A DNA stretch of 24,775 nt from a virus. Below, piece after piece: positions 1-23,215 of this stretch. Where the stretch lies: the IMG/VR virus record IMGVR_UViG_3300005782_000026, positions 1-24,775 of that record; one strand, 5' to 3'. A program made the position numbers and the translations under genes. Every line of letters starts with the position of its first letter. The stretch's first letter is position 1. Below the pieces are notes generated by a model. The model had not been told where the DNA came from, made no database searches, and worked only from the letters and a program-made list of their open reading frames with translations.

Positions 1-1692
1 GATATTAATATCGGAATAAACTTCAGCATCGATCCCTGTCATGTCGCCAGTTCTCACTACATCAATGATACCTGTTGCGGTCACTTGAGCAGTCGCCGAA
101 TAACCTATGTCAAGAGATACACCTTCAGCAGTCTGAGTAAATATCCCTGTGACTCCGGTTACATTTGCATCAGATTCAATAGTCCCCGTAGTAAAATCAC
201 CGTTAACATCAACACCACCAGTAAAACCAGCAAATGTTAAATTATCAGAAGTATTGATCGTTACAGTTCCCTGATCATTATCGCTTGCGATAAATGTGAT
301 TTGACCGGATGTTCCGCTGTTTGCACCCGTACTCATTGTAGAGGCAGCTACTACCGTTGCGTCGGAAGCAATCGTATTCCCTGTCAATGCGCCAACCACA
401 TCGGCATCGCCAGAAACGGTAAGATTATCACCAATCCCCACTTCTGAATTTGAATGTCCAATATCGACAGGACTGCCATCTGTACCAGTATTAATATCGA
501 TTCCGTTGGTTGTATTTGTGTTGTCCATAGTGAAAGTCGAAGTTGCATTAAAATCAAATGCAGTTCCATCGGCTGTAATTGTTCCGTCTATATCGGTATT
601 GTCCAGATTTGCTACAAGCTCAACGGCGAGATCACCAGTAACGCTTAGATTATCATTAACGGTTGTTTCTGAAGTTGTATGTCCGATAGATATTGGGCTC
701 CCACTTGTAACCGCATTTATCACAACACCATTACTTGTATTGGTATTATCAATTGTAACCGTAGTGGTGCTATTTACATCAAATGTAGTTCCGTCTGCGG
801 CGAATGTTCCATCTATATCTGTATTGTCAAGATTAGATGTCCCATCAACATACAAATCTAAAACAACGCCAAGTCCGCCGTCTGTCTGAATTGACCCAAC
901 CGTTGGACTGGTTGAATTGGTTGCATTAGAGATATCAATAGGATAGGCGGATGAATATTCTCCCTGTGCATCAGAAAGGGGGATATAAAAAGCAGTCGTA
1001 TTTACCAGAACTCTCAATGTATTATCGTACCATACATTGCCAGTCAAATCGTTTATATCGTCGAAATGGAAAATATAACCGTAATCCTCCCAATCAGCGG
1101 CAGCCGTAGTGTTACCCCAAAGCCCTGTCCGCATAAAAGCCATAGGTCTTGTGGTTGGGCTGGTAAGCGAGGAAAAATTTTCCGGCGCTTCAATCTCCAA
1201 ATCTATCGCATAATAAGCTCCGCCGCTGGGCGTTCTTGCCGGTAAATTTAACTCAGCACAAATCGCCGCAGCCATTCCGCCGCCAGCATCGCCAGTTGAT
1301 CCGGTACTATAATCGACACGTCCAACAATGCCATTGACCCACGATCCGGTTTGAACATCTGCAATAACTTTAGAATAAAAACCCTCTGAAATCGCACCTG
1401 CACCGGTTTGAGTTAAAGTAACGGTTGCTCCCACCTCAGTACCCGAAGTATTATCATTTGTTTGAACAACGGTGAACAAATCTTCGCTCGCATCATAAAG
1501 AACATAATTACCAGCAGTAGCGCCCCAGAATTTTACATCAGCACCGTTCGCACTTTCGCCGGTAACAAACCCCTGTTCCAATATAACATCGTTCCAAAAA
1601 TAAACAGGAACTTGAAATATCTGTTGTGCTGATATTGTTATGGGTAACAATACAGCTAACAACAGCATAATAAATAAACTATTTCTTCGCAT
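1..1692 (-). CDS. Repetitive fibre/appendage-like protein with signal peptide, C-terminus cut by window edge
   Basis: The frame is open from an ATG at 1692 to base 1 (564 codons, no stop), so the 3' end lies outside the window. An SD (GGAGGT) sits 7 nt before the ATG, which overlaps the end of the preceding gene by 14 nt. The first 24 residues look like a signal peptide: basic MRRN, a hydrophobic core (LFIMLLLAVLLPIT) and an ISA-QQ cleavage site. The rest is rich in T, S, G, D and N with almost no Lys or Cys, typical of beta-structured phage fibres. Two copies of a 75-residue unit starting NLDNTDIDGT lie back to back (period 225 nt, copies near 611-836 and 386-611). Position behind the capsid genes suggests a virion appendage or head fibre. 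A signal peptide is odd for a virion protein assembled in the cytoplasm; an exported adhesin-like product is the alternative. The family is not recognised with certainty. Confidence 0.8.
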   Translation of the reverse strand, partial: MRRNSLFIMLLLAVLLPITISAQQIFQVPVYFWNDVILEQGFVTGESANGADVKFWGATAGNYVLYDASEDLFTVVQTNDNTSGTEVGATVTLTQTGAGAISEGFYSKVIADVQTGSWVNGIVGRVDYSTGSTGDAGGGMAAAICAELNLPARTPSGGAYYAIDLEIEAPENFSSLTSPTTRPMAFMRTGLWGNTTAAADWEDYGYIFHFDDINDLTGNVWYDNTLRVLVNTTAFYIPLSDAQGEYSSAYPIDISNATNSTSPTVGSIQTDGGLGVVLDLYVDGTSNLDNTDIDGTFAADGTTFDVNSTTTVTIDNTNTSNGVVINAVTSGSPISIGHTTSETTVNDNLSVTGDLAVELVANLDNTDIDGTITADGTAFDFNATSTFTMDNTNTTNGIDINTGTDGSPVDIGHSNSEVGIGDNLTVSGDADVVGALTGNTIASDATVVAASTMSTGANSGTSGQITFIASDNDQGTVTINTSDNLTFAGFTGGVDVNGDFTTGTIESDANVTGVTGIFTQTAEGVSLDIGYSATAQVTATGIIDVVRTGDMTGIDAEVYSDINI

Positions 1693-20057: not shown

Positions 20058-20327
20058 CTATATACGAATGATCTTTATAAATTCCCATTTGATATGTTGA
20101 CCTACAGCAGAATTATCACCGAACAGACCAAACGTATATCGTCTATAACATTTTTCTTTGAAATGTTTTCTCATGTGTTTTTCAACTGATTTCATAGTAT
20201 GATTTTCAAAGACGCCAGTCCATTTATCCCATTTATTTATGTCCAGAGGGAAACATAAATTGTACCAATTAAACAATATCCTTACAGTATAACGGCGGTA
20301 TACTTTAGGGGATTCAAGGTCTTTCAT
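20058..20327 (-). CDS. 89-aa basic protein, unknown
   Basis: A basic, aromatic-rich product (YRRYTVRILFNWYNLCF, KWDKWTGVF, EKHMRKHFKEKCYRRYTFGL). It overlaps the HTH gene by 14 nt, so the two share an mRNA. The YRRYT motif occurs twice (residues 10-14 and 61-65), hinting at an internal repeat. No family recognised; a partner of the HTH regulator is possible. Confidence 0.55.
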   Translation of the reverse strand: MKDLESPKVYRRYTVRILFNWYNLCFPLDINKWDKWTGVFENHTMKSVEKHMRKHFKEKCYRRYTFGLFGDNSAVGQHIKWEFIKIIRI

Positions 20328-20487
20328 TTTGAAGATTTTTCATAATTCTGATAAAAACCTTAGAGGGCTTTGATCGATCATTTTCCCATCGATTTATAGT
20401 TGTTGTAGTAGTGCCTACAACATGAGCGAACTCAAATTGACTCTCGCCTCTCGAAAGTCTCAATGCTTTGATTTCTTCTGGTGTCAT
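20314..20487 (-). CDS. Xre-type HTH transcriptional regulator
   Basis: A 57-aa protein starting MTPEEIKALRLSRGESQ. Residues 3-45 match the short HTH_3 domains of the form 'MTPEEIKaLRe-lGlSQeeFA-llGvs-sTV-rWEnG-skPs': here GESQFEFAHVVGTTTTTIN then RWENDRSKPS. It is the first gene after the strong promoter at 20514-20542 with GGAGGT upstream. It most likely represses its own promoter and the early promoter at 19927-19955. Confidence 0.82.
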   Translation of the reverse strand: MTPEEIKALRLSRGESQFEFAHVVGTTTTTINRWENDRSKPSKVFIRIMKNLQNERP

Positions 20488-20513: not shown

Positions 20514-20542
20514 AATATACCAAATAATAACATAAAAGTCAA
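20514..20542 (-). promoter_or_regulatory. Strong promoter of the HTH regulator unit
   Basis: TTGACT (20542-20537), 17-nt spacer, TATATT (20519-20514). It has 5/6 matches in both boxes and lies 27 nt before the HTH ATG. A palindrome TTATATATAA (20503-20512) just below the -10 is a candidate operator for autoregulation. The -10 TATATT is the same as in the late promoter at 8905-8933. Confidence 0.75.
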
Positions 20543-20552
20543 TATATATTTT

Positions 20553-20591
20553 AATAAAAAAATCGCCCCACACTATCCATGCGAGGCGATT
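20553..20591 (-). terminator. Rho-independent terminator of the lysis/late unit
   Basis: The minus-strand RNA pairs AAUCGCCUCGCA with UGUGGGGCGAUU over 12 bp, including two G-U pairs that only form in this strand. The loop is 7 nt and a run of U follows. It lies 34 nt past the holin-like gene at 20625 and just before the next promoter, so it separates late from early transcription. Confidence 0.88.
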
Positions 20592-20624
20592 CCTTTTCGG
20601 TAAGACTTACGAGGCGGGAATAAT

Positions 20625-20960
20625 TTACGGTATATCTGCTACTGCTTTCCTAATTCCTACTATGCCAAGTACACCGCATAAGCTGTATATGATTTCAATA
20701 TCAATTGGCAATGTCATACCCAGACCATTTACAATCGATATCACAGCAACCAAACCGGCGGCGACATAAGTTTTCCATCCTTTGTTTCCTGATATTTTCT
20801 GAATAGCGGTACGGAAGAATCCCAAGCCCAGACCAGCCAAAACACCGAATACAGCTTCAGGAATCATCTTACCTGTCAAGACAGGAATAAGTACCAGACC
20901 CAAAAACAAAACAGCGATGATATAGGTTTTCTTTCCTTTTAAAAATTCGATGATATTCAT
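20625..20960 (-). CDS. Holin-like membrane protein, copy A
   Basis: A 111-aa product starting MNIIEFLKGKKTYIIAVLFL. It has three or four hydrophobic segments (about residues 12-30, 34-53, 70-90 and 92-105) separated by a conserved loop 'AIQKISGNKGWK'. It is clearly homologous to copy B at 21941-22297 (shared FLxGKKxYxIAxLF, LVLIPVLTG, AIQKxSGNKGW, LGIVGxRKAV). Placement after the endolysin suggests a holin-type role. Start 20960 has AAGGAG, and the longer frame to 21053 is an artefact of the adjoining gene remnant. Confidence 0.7.
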   Translation of the reverse strand: MNIIEFLKGKKTYIIAVLFLGLVLIPVLTGKMIPEAVFGVLAGLGLGFFRTAIQKISGNKGWKTYVAAGLVAVISIVNGLGMTLPIDIEIIYSLCGVLGIVGIRKAVADIP

Positions 20961-20961
20961 C

Positions 20962-21111
20962 TCAATTCTCCTTTCTGAAATGATTAATAATTTCACCGAT
21001 CCACTCGATGATAGTTTTAAAAATGATTTCCCATGATACTTTCCCCTCGCCATTAACTAATTTTTTTATACCATGACCAGCACCTACACCAGTAAAAGCA
21101 TATCCAATCCC
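20962..21111 (-). pseudogene. 3' remnant of the 22300-22707 gene
   Basis: The frame from about 21111 to a TGA at 20962 reads IGYAFTGVGAGHGIKKLVNG... and ends NHFRKEN. The intact gene reads IGYAFAGVGAAHGTKKLING... and ends NYFRKEN. Homology stops abruptly just after the shared AAAGCATATCCAATCCC, and no start codon or SD precedes it. It therefore is the tail of a duplicated gene, kept together with the holin-like copy A whose SD lies in its last codons. Confidence 0.8.
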
Positions 21112-21141
21112 ACGCGGTTTTGATGTTGTGTATGTGGAGTT

Positions 21142-21363
21142 TCATTCAACAAATCTCTTTTTAAGAACTTTATAATTTTTCTTGAACCACAATTCAGCCT
21201 CTAATGCTAAATGTGCAAGTACATCATTAGGTTTTGCTTTAGAAATTCTCAATACTGCAATTGCATCTTTTATGTTGATTGTATTGGGATCAAGATTGTA
21301 AATTATTTTAATACATTGATCTGAGTCATCAATATTTTTTCTTAATTTTGTTCTGACATTCAT
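21142..21363 (-). CDS. 73-aa basic protein in the inserted unit
   Basis: The product starts MNVRTKLRKNIDDSDQCIKI and continues with a helical stretch (DAIAVLRISKAKPNDVLAHLALEAELWFKKNY). GGGAGGGCTAAGAG lies before the ATG. It follows the 56-aa gene and shares its promoter. No family recognised. Confidence 0.58.
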   Translation of the reverse strand: MNVRTKLRKNIDDSDQCIKIIYNLDPNTINIKDAIAVLRISKAKPNDVLAHLALEAELWFKKNYKVLKKRFVE

Positions 21364-21383
21364 CTCTTAGCCCTCCCTCTTTC

Positions 21384-21554
21384 TTATAAAAACTCAGCCA
21401 TAATTTCATCTGCTGTTTCCTCTACAAAATTATCCGGCTGAAAAGTTGTTTCATCTGCCAGCCACTTGTCCACAAGAACGGAAATATCAAACTCTTCACT
21501 GACTTCGATACAGACGTGCATAATATTTGTTTTTTTATCTTTTGTGTGTGCCAT
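21384..21554 (-). CDS. 56-aa acidic protein with structured leader
   Basis: The product starts MAHTKDKKTNIMHVCIEVSE and is acidic in its C-terminal half (ADETTFQPDNFVEETADEIM). Start 21554 has GGGGAGGTTATA upstream. The frame extends to 21602 but that part is the hairpin region. It is the first gene of a two-gene insert between the two lysis-module copies, with its own promoter (21712-21740). It has the look of a phage moron: foreign position and independent transcription. Function unknown. Confidence 0.58.
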   Translation of the reverse strand: MAHTKDKKTNIMHVCIEVSEEFDISVLVDKWLADETTFQPDNFVEETADEIMAEFL

Positions 21555-21579
21555 TATAACCTCCCCTGTAAATAAACCA

Positions 21580-21649
21580 AGGGCAACCGCAATGGGAATC
21601 ACCCATTAAAATTAGGCACAAGGGGATGCCTGAAAGGATCGGTTGCCCT
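21580..21649 (-). ncRNA. Three-way-junction RNA structure in the leader
   Basis: In the minus-strand RNA a closing stem AGGGCAACCG (21649-21640)/CGGUUGCCCU (21589-21580) of 10 bp encloses two hairpins: AGGCA/UGCCU with an 8-nt loop and AAUGGG/CCCAUU with a 5-nt loop. It ends 13 nt before the GGGGAGG SD of the 56-aa gene and starts about 55 nt after the expected transcription start. It does not match tRNA, tmRNA or a riboswitch class I can name. A cis-regulator is likely; a DNA hairpin for recombination is the alternative. Confidence 0.5.
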
Positions 21650-21711
21650 CGTAAATTAGTTATAATGTTTTTTGTGGATTTCACTTAATCCCCTTGAATT
21701 TGATTGACTAC

Positions 21712-21740
21712 AACATAAGTAAACCCTCCTAAAATGTCAA
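21712..21740 (-). promoter_or_regulatory. Probable promoter of the inserted two-gene unit
   Basis: TTGACA (21740-21735), 17-nt spacer, TATGTT (21717-21712). The -35 is perfect and the -10 matches 4/6. It would produce a leader of about 150 nt before the 56-aa gene, holding the three-way junction. Confidence 0.52.
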
Positions 21741-21809
21741 GTGAGTAATTTAGGGACTAATATAAAATACCATAAGGGTTGCTTATGTTAATCAGATTTT
21801 AGGAATGAG

Positions 21810-21938
21810 CTATTTATTCTTAGCAATTCTAATGATTAATATGATAATACCAATTAGTCCGGCCAGGGAAAGACCTGTGATCAGTCCGACCCTTAGAGCT
21901 ATTCCAGCAATAATGTCTATGATTATTTCAAAATGACA
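21810..21938 (-). other. Open frame for a membrane segment, no start codon
   Basis: Forty-two codons read CHFEIIIDIIAGIALRVGLI..., with a long hydrophobic helix and a basic end (RIAKNK). This is good membrane-protein sequence, but no ATG, GTG or TTG precedes it, and the frame overlaps the end of holin-like copy B in the -1 frame. It may be an eroded gene or a frameshift extension of copy B. Confidence 0.3.
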
Positions 21939-21940
21939 GG

Positions 21941-22297
21941 TTATTTCATGTACGGCACTAAATCGCCTACCGCTTTTCTGGCTCCTACAATGCCGAGAAC
22001 GACACTCCCGCCGTATATCATTTCCAATATTTGAGGGGAAATAACTAAACCTACGCTGGTTGATACGGTTATGCCGACAACAACGACAACTGCTGCATAA
22101 CTTCGCCAGCCTTTATTGCCGGAGAGCTTTTGAATAGCTAACCGAATAAATCCGAACCCAATCGCACCAGCAACCGCAAATACTTTTTCTGGAACGATCT
22201 CGCCGGTCAAAACAGGAATTAGAACAAGTACCGCGAACAACAACGCAATGAGATAAGCTTTCTTTCCATTTAAAAATTCTTTGATTTTTTCAAACAT
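21941..22297 (-). CDS. Holin-like membrane protein, copy B
   Basis: A 118-aa product starting MFEKIKEFLNGKKAYLIALL. Hydrophobic segments lie at about residues 14-33, 38-55, 68-88 and 92-108, with the loop AIQKLSGNKGWRSY and a C-terminal ARKAVGDLVPYMK. AAGGAG is in place, formed by the last codons of the upstream gene. It is homologous to copy A but not to a named holin family. Its place in the lysis cassette makes holin the best guess. Confidence 0.7.
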   Translation of the reverse strand: MFEKIKEFLNGKKAYLIALLFAVLVLIPVLTGEIVPEKVFAVAGAIGFGFIRLAIQKLSGNKGWRSYAAVVVVVGITVSTSVGLVISPQILEMIYGGSVVLGIVGARKAVGDLVPYMK

Positions 22298-22299
22298 AA

Positions 22300-22707
22300 C
22301 TAATTCTCCTTCCTAAAATAATTGATGATATCACCGATAATTTCGATGATCTTTTTAAATATGATCTCCCAAGACACCTTCCCCTCTCCATTTATTAATT
22401 TCTTTGTTCCGTGAGCTGCACCAACTCCGGCAAAAGCATATCCAATCCCCTGAGCTAAAAGAGCCAATCCTCCGGTCAGTACAGTTTCTCCGGCTATAAC
22501 TGCAAGTCCTCCGATGATTAATTTCTTTCCATCGATCCATCCCCACACATCTCTTACCTTGACTTTCGCTCGATCAAAGATATTTACTTTATATTTTACT
22601 TTTTTTGTCGGTATTCTCGGAGGCGGTTCAATAATTTTACCAGCTTTCATATAGGGCAACCGAACTCTGACCCCTAATTCTTTGGCACTTTCAAGAAAAC
22701 TTTTCAT
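22300..22707 (-). CDS. Membrane protein of the lysis cassette, unknown
   Basis: A 135-aa product. A basic, Pro-rich N-terminal part (KIIEPPPRIPTKKVKYKV) is followed by one long or two short hydrophobic segments (about residues 61-98, IIGGLAVIAGETVLTGGLAL...) rich in Gly/Ala, and a C-terminal amphipathic helix. It overlaps the endolysin gene by 17 nt. Its 3' half is duplicated at 20962-21111. It may help membrane disruption alongside the holin-like protein. Confidence 0.65.
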   Translation of the reverse strand: MKSFLESAKELGVRVRLPYMKAGKIIEPPPRIPTKKVKYKVNIFDRAKVKVRDVWGWIDGKKLIIGGLAVIAGETVLTGGLALLAQGIGYAFAGVGAAHGTKKLINGEGKVSWEIIFKKIIEIIGDIINYFRKEN

Positions 22708-23215
22708 TTTTTAAATCATCCCTAAATTTATCTAAACTGAATAACATCCCCGGACAGGTCTTTGATGGATCATATTCCCTGTGACCTTTTACATCGTCTG
22801 GAGTTAAATTATATATTTTTAAAATCATATCAATAAACTTCACACCCAGATTCCACATTTCAACCGGAGGAGATACTAAATCATAATCACCTACAAAAAC
22901 AAACCCGAATGATTTATTATTCATATTTTTTGCCCTGCAATGCGCTCCCTTTTTCAGCCATGATCTGCCAAATAAAATCTGATATCTTTCATTAATTAAT
23001 TCAGATCCTGCATGATACCCAGTTTCATCCCAGGGAAGTTTTATATTGTGATTATTAATCCCCTGATCAATAGCGGCCATCGCCTCATCTTCTGAAATAA
23101 TATTTCCTTTATAAGCATAAGATTCGTGATATAATTGGATATCATCCCATGAGACGGTTTTTGAATCTTTTGTTTTAGAATAATGCAAAATGATTTTTTT
23201 TGGTTTTAAAATCAT
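22691..23215 (-). CDS. N-acetylmuramoyl-L-alanine amidase endolysin (Amidase_2/PGRP type)
   Basis: A 174-aa zinc amidase that cuts the bond between N-acetylmuramic acid and L-Ala in peptidoglycan. Zinc ligands fit H11 (IILHYS), H145 (VKGHREYDP) and C154 (KTCPG), as in T7 lysozyme. Supporting family motifs are DETGYHAG (66-70), KGAHCRAKNMN (90-100) and SFGFVFVGDYD. It has no signal peptide or cell-wall-binding domain, so release needs a holin, consistent with the neighbours. ATGA overlap with the upstream gene. Confidence 0.92.
   Translation of the reverse strand: MILKPKKIILHYSKTKDSKTVSWDDIQLYHESYAYKGNIISEDEAMAAIDQGINNHNIKLPWDETGYHAGSELINERYQILFGRSWLKKGAHCRAKNMNNKSFGFVFVGDYDLVSPPVEMWNLGVKFIDMILKIYNLTPDDVKGHREYDPSKTCPGMLFSLDKFRDDLKNEKFS

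Follow-up and report, generated by a model that had tools for sequence, protein, structure and literature searches.

A truncated gene copy and a second holin-like gene at the lysis/early boundary of an uncultured phage contig, a probable scar of recombination

Junctions in the mosaic genomes of tailed phages are produced by illegitimate recombination followed by selection. Lysis cassettes with several small membrane proteins are described for other phages. In F1-cluster mycobacteriophages, two holin-like genes, LysF1a and LysF1b, are reported in the lysis cassette, their products having distinct topologies, with two transmembrane domains and one, respectively (PMC13056207). For phage P1, LydA, LydC and LydD are reported as small lysis membrane proteins (PMC9025707). 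The locus studied here resembles these cassettes in encoding at least two small membrane proteins next to the endolysin. It differs from the LysF1a/LysF1b pair as portrayed there, since its two proteins, H and H', are homologous and 54–55% identical.

The DNA studied, hereafter called the window, is IMG/VR record IMGVR_UViG_3300005782_000026, one uncultured metagenome contig of 24,775 bases. Family searches revealed a terminase, a Mu-like portal and protease, and capsid genes. There is no tRNA in the whole window, and an explanation by a tRNA or integration site was rejected on this ground. A DNA search of annotated phages with the window gave no match, nor did a protein search with H, H', A or the amidase, and the terminase showed only about 21–26% identity to annotated phages, among 20 of the 57 matching records listed. 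The holin profile and the terminase found no relatives in bacterial genomes, and scans of viral_contigs with A, the amidase and Y found none. A terminase alignment led to IMGVR_UViG_3300018080_000309 (40.4 kb, terminase 58% identical), hereafter G001, whose capsid, protease, portal and terminase genes match those of the window. It was the sole syntenic relative compared. The features of the lysis/early region are collected in Table 1. The PADLOC matches of the HTH protein are of a generic HTH kind.

Table 1. Features of the lysis/early region, in window positions.
Feature	Position	Strand	Basis
Endolysin, Amidase_2 type, single copy	22691–23215	-	Pfam PF01510, E 3.5e-11; PHROG endolysin, E 2.9e-12
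Gene A, 135 aa, membrane-hairpin-like, intact	22300–22707	-	ORF
Gene H, 118 aa, holin-like, copy 1	21941–22297	-	double-hairpin homologues in 4 other viral records
Promoter-like TTGACA-17-TATGTT	21712–21740	-	sequence scan; alignment of 21645–21745 with G001 promoter/leader
Structured leader with closing stem	about 21560–21700	-	RNA fold; inverted-repeat search
Gene X, 56 aa, function unassigned	21384–21554	-	ORF with strong Shine-Dalgarno sequence
Gene Y, 73 aa, function unassigned	21142–21363	-	ORF
A', end of a second gene A (last 49 codons and stop), lacking the 5' part	20962–21111	-	homology to A
Gene H', 111 aa, holin-like, copy 2	20625–20960	-	55% to H; 56–58% to G001 holin
Intrinsic terminator behind H', stem of 18 pairs followed by a U-run	20556–20596	-	-24.4 kcal/mol
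Second promoter-like site TTGACT-17-TATATT, before HTH gene	20514–20542	-	promoter-site scan
HTH gene	20314–20487	-	family search

Upon comparison of the window with itself by blastn, the 3' 49 codons of A together with H were found to recur as A' and H', as the preliminary description had claimed. The off-diagonal match (22096–22449 against 20765–21111) shows 72.3% identity over 357 nt (E 7e-50), and its ungapped core D1, 148 nt at 80%, ranked first in a repeat search. The homology of H and H' reaches the end of both genes (60/110 identical, E 1e-37, protein comparison). A' agrees with the C-terminus of A in 41 of 49 residues, the first codon differences beginning only past 18 identical bases. 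What had been called a duplicated lysis module comprises the end of A and H, since the window has a single amidase gene and a single copy of the first 86 codons of A. The Shine-Dalgarno sequence of H' sits within the last codons of A'. H' and the holin of G001 are each followed immediately by a terminator, whereas immediately behind H no terminator was seen. Behind H, a start-less open frame of about 43 codons (21813–21941, minus strand) ends very hydrophobic and is possibly another gene remnant; tested as a third remnant, it had no relatives in the loci compared. The sole other sizeable self-match of the window (406–609 against 631–834) consists of two 204-nt direct repeats, 69% identical, at 406–834 inside the fibre-like gene 1–1692.

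The N- and C-terminal halves of H match each other (hhalign probability 95–97%, E 3e-8 and 6e-10), and single-hairpin relatives of about 56–60 aa exist (L008, L009). In both copies, the holin-like protein consists of one hairpin unit that has been duplicated internally. Searches of Pfam, PHROG and NCBIfam gave nothing above cut-off for H, H', A, X and Y, so that no curated family supports the name holin; for the L003 and L018 relatives the PHROG holin matches are weak, with E values of 0.6 and 0.2, and a PDB sequence search gave matches at chance level only. AF2 models H' entirely as helices, five in number, with a mean pLDDT of 62.5, which is low, and the model was too weak for a fold search; that of A (pLDDT 44) was unusable. 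H and H' are small multi-TM proteins beside an endolysin, with the reservation that the H' model is of low confidence, and the holin-like genes have endolysins of the Amidase_2 or M15 type as neighbours in G001 and G002 as well as in the window. From their position, H and H' are putative holins.

For A', no ATG, GTG or TTG is available in frame from the stop codon of the gene before it up to the point where the homology begins. The second copy of A is indeed only a remnant, 49 codons plus stop, and in its present form A' is not a gene. Across the 49 codons, A and A' differ at 30 nucleotides with only 8 amino acid changes. A neutral simulation of 30 random changes (5000 trials) gave a mean of 20.4 amino acid changes and a minimum of 12, with no trial at 8 or fewer, and 72% of the simulations put a stop codon into A'. 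For A/A', dN is 0.096 and dS 1.41, with a bootstrap 97.5% limit of 0.29 for pN/pS; for H/H' these values are 0.325 and 1.64. Such near-synonymous divergence argues that A' was intact for most of the time in which the copies diverged and was broken late, unless it is still translated. Duplication and truncation were then not one event, the truncation being much later than the split of the copies; the break is dated in this way by a gene end that lacks a start codon and yet has diverged almost only at synonymous sites.

Translation of A' could persist by read-through of the UGA of Y, giving a Y-A' protein of 133 residues, the size of A, which would explain the conservation. Y and A' share a frame, with a single UGA and ten codons between them and 59 open codons after that UGA, and the constraint on A' is strong. 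However, two frames coincide by chance one time in three, 6 other genes among the 41 listed are followed by open extensions of 46–84 codons, and TGA is an ordinary stop that ends 18 of these 41; such a read-through is considered highly improbable. The same count led to rejection of UGA as a recoded sense codon.

The lysis region of G001 contains, in order, a coiled protein, an M15 endolysin, an A homologue, one holin, a terminator, a promoter and a GC-rich inverted repeat, beyond which lie small genes, an ERF recombinase and SSB. The A homologue, between endolysin and holin, was detected by BLASTP at E 0.001 over the C-terminal 57 aa. When window positions 21645–21745 were compared with pieces of G001 (318 chunks, both strands), the spot behind the G001 holin scored 189 and the next one 149; none of 1000 shuffles reached 189, their maximum being 147. 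With the longer query 21556–21745 this spot ranks second (207 versus 211), and with 21690–21745 alone it lies outside the top four. As the leader is homologous to the one after G001's single holin, the window promoter/leader is, with moderate confidence, native: it opens the early region and does not belong to an insert as its own promoter. TTGACTTTTATG, in the second promoter-like site of the window, also begins the G001 promoter after the holin terminator.

The G001 leader (L014 7335–7440, minus strand) has a stem at the same place as the leader stem of the window, and its loop CCCCTCC is, by eye, complementary to the Shine-Dalgarno sequence GGAGGGG. A second G001 hairpin (L014 4759–4830, minus strand), from GGGGCAACC to GGTTGCCCC with 50 nt between, immediately precedes the Shine-Dalgarno sequence of a gene for 56 aa, and its stem resembles the window's leader stem. 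The endolysin preceding the homologous A-H genes is of the Amidase_2 type in the window and an M15 peptidase in G001 (L014 8178–8582), which points to an endolysin swap.

Taken on its own, the promoter-like site at 21740–21712 is weak, 15 such sites being found in the region against 11.4 expected. The leader downstream is closed by a 10-bp stem, AGGGCAACCG (21640–21649) with CGGTTGCCCT (21580–21589), which is the window's only 9-bp perfect, G+C-containing inverted repeat at that spacing, own-loop pairing aside. Its loop ATCCCCTTG is a perfect 9-nt complement of 21688–21696, and the TCCCCT of the loop pairs with the Shine-Dalgarno sequence of X (21562–21567); the minimum-energy fold contains neither pairing. 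The leader looks like a candidate translational switch. In Rfam no match reached the gathering score in the window and those at the leader were at chance level, so a known RNA family was rejected.

The start of X, revised from 21602, is an ATG with a strong Shine-Dalgarno sequence. X has no relatives in the loci compared and no family match; Y has none in viral_contigs or in the loci compared, and its best hint, Pfam PyrI at 20.1 bits, is under the cut-off of 25. Both are absent from G001, which has other small genes at that place. The preliminary description had regarded X and Y as a moron with its own promoter, imported in one recombination of which the partial duplication was a by-product. 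The two small genes between the copies and the promoter-like site upstream of them stand, as does their lack of detectable relatives, but a promoter and a terminator of their own, as looked for in a moron, do not. The promoter/leader corresponds to the one that is native to the early region of G001, and X-Y has no terminator of its own, the first clear one past these genes being that behind H', with a weak terminator-like site (21011–20993) inside A'. Moreover, given the coding constraint on A', the copies have diverged far too much to have arisen as a by-product of that one event. A recombination is retained from this account, whose duplication reading is half right; the import of a moron is quite unlikely, and X and Y alone may still be of foreign origin.

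H' is 56–58% identical to the G001 holin, more than the 45–47% of H, and is as near to that holin as it is to H. All four relative-rate comparisons favour a faster H (21:9, 18:6, 18:12 and 16:10, two of them at p <0.05), as do sites where all four outgroups agree (7:0). In the ML tree the branches are 0.62 for H and 0.21 for H', and the grouping of the two is weak (bootstrap 64). An AU test of five placements rejected two, in which G001 pairs with a single copy, either H' or H, and retained three, among them H' with G001+L003 (p-AU 0.34), and H with H'. As both of these placements stand, H/H' do not discriminate between an old paralogue and an import.

A survey of nine whole records with holin profiles, which include possible fragments and some distant relatives, found one holin copy in six and two copies in none. 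The double-hairpin protein is encoded once in each of the four other records that have it (G001, G002, G003 and G007), the single-hairpin form once in G008 and in G009, and no copy was found by the profiles in G004–G006, short, terminase-side contigs. Relatives with two intact copies and no insert were thus not found among these fragmentary or distant records.

As expected of a tandem duplication, A and A' are mutually closest, far closer (41/49) than either is to gene A of G001 (15/44 for A, 14/44 for A'); H and H' are not, when set against G001. It is possible, at a clearly lower probability than an even chance, that A-H was duplicated in tandem within the lineage, that both copies stayed intact for long, and that promoter/leader and X-Y were later displaced into the second A, removing its 5' part. 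The closeness of A and A', the weak grouping of H and H' and the similar dS of both pairs are consistent with this. The leader would, however, have to be relocated from a place after H' into the space separating the copies, while in G001 it directly follows the one holin, and the survey found no relative carrying two intact copies.

The duplication is ordinary phage mosaicism, a routine product of recombination, and recombination between related phages is most likely; its signs here are the truncated gene copy, an endolysin type different from that of G001 and a gene order unlike that of G001. More specifically, there is about an even chance that the repeat is an out-of-register junction, with a related phage or an old second copy as donor. 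The locus would be a recombination scar at the boundary of the lysis and early modules. Its left part would consist of endolysin, A, H, early promoter/leader, X and Y, and the piece joined to it at about 21112–21141 would start within the donor's gene A and bring the 3' end A', H', terminator, promoter and early genes. A single crossover, as the simplest course of events, and this donor are inferred. The identities among A, A' and G001 speak against a junction with another phage in so far as the donor would have to be near, and a tandem copy of the same lineage would fit them too.

The same picture would arise if the assembly had fused two related phages from a single metagenome into a chimera. 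The junction occurs in a single viral record, and the near-identical contigs L004 and L005 cover only the left 12.1 kb and not the junction. Against this, the longest exact word common to the copies is 18 nt, the same 18-mer being the longest word common to the junction and the rest of the window. Shared words of 18 nt are short for joining contigs, and a chimera is regarded as very unlikely.

Under the out-of-register junction, A'-H'-terminator would be the piece out of place, behind an early leader and two small genes. A', having lost its start and first 86 codons, would now serve as the untranslated front of H' and supply its Shine-Dalgarno sequence, so that the break inside A' would spare H' expression. 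As H' keeps ribosome site and terminator, it is probably made with X and Y, judging from its position, from a leader-X-Y-H' transcript in which it comes last and which stops at 20556–20596, with late read-through in addition. The late operon would supply the second holin-like protein, H, which drifts faster. That an early H' behind a switchable leader and a late H evolving about three times faster form an emerging holin/antiholin timer is unlikely; if H' is early and H late, they would illustrate one route to a holin/antiholin pair.

A lone uncultured contig without close relatives settles no open question. The locus would be a clean case of phage mosaicism leaving two homologous lysis genes under different control, and two side points are worth keeping, namely that the leader has alternative pairings and that the holin is repeated internally. 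With G001, G002, G003 and G007 of IMG/VR the window has the same double-hairpin holin-like family in common, unlike them in its copy number; the endolysin adjoins gene A in G001 and is one gene away from the holin in G002. Like the mosaic junctions of tailed phages, the locus has a sharp intragenic boundary between modules and a truncated gene end beside an intact gene. Unlike at typical mosaic junctions, homologous genes lie on both sides, so that the scar resembles a duplication.
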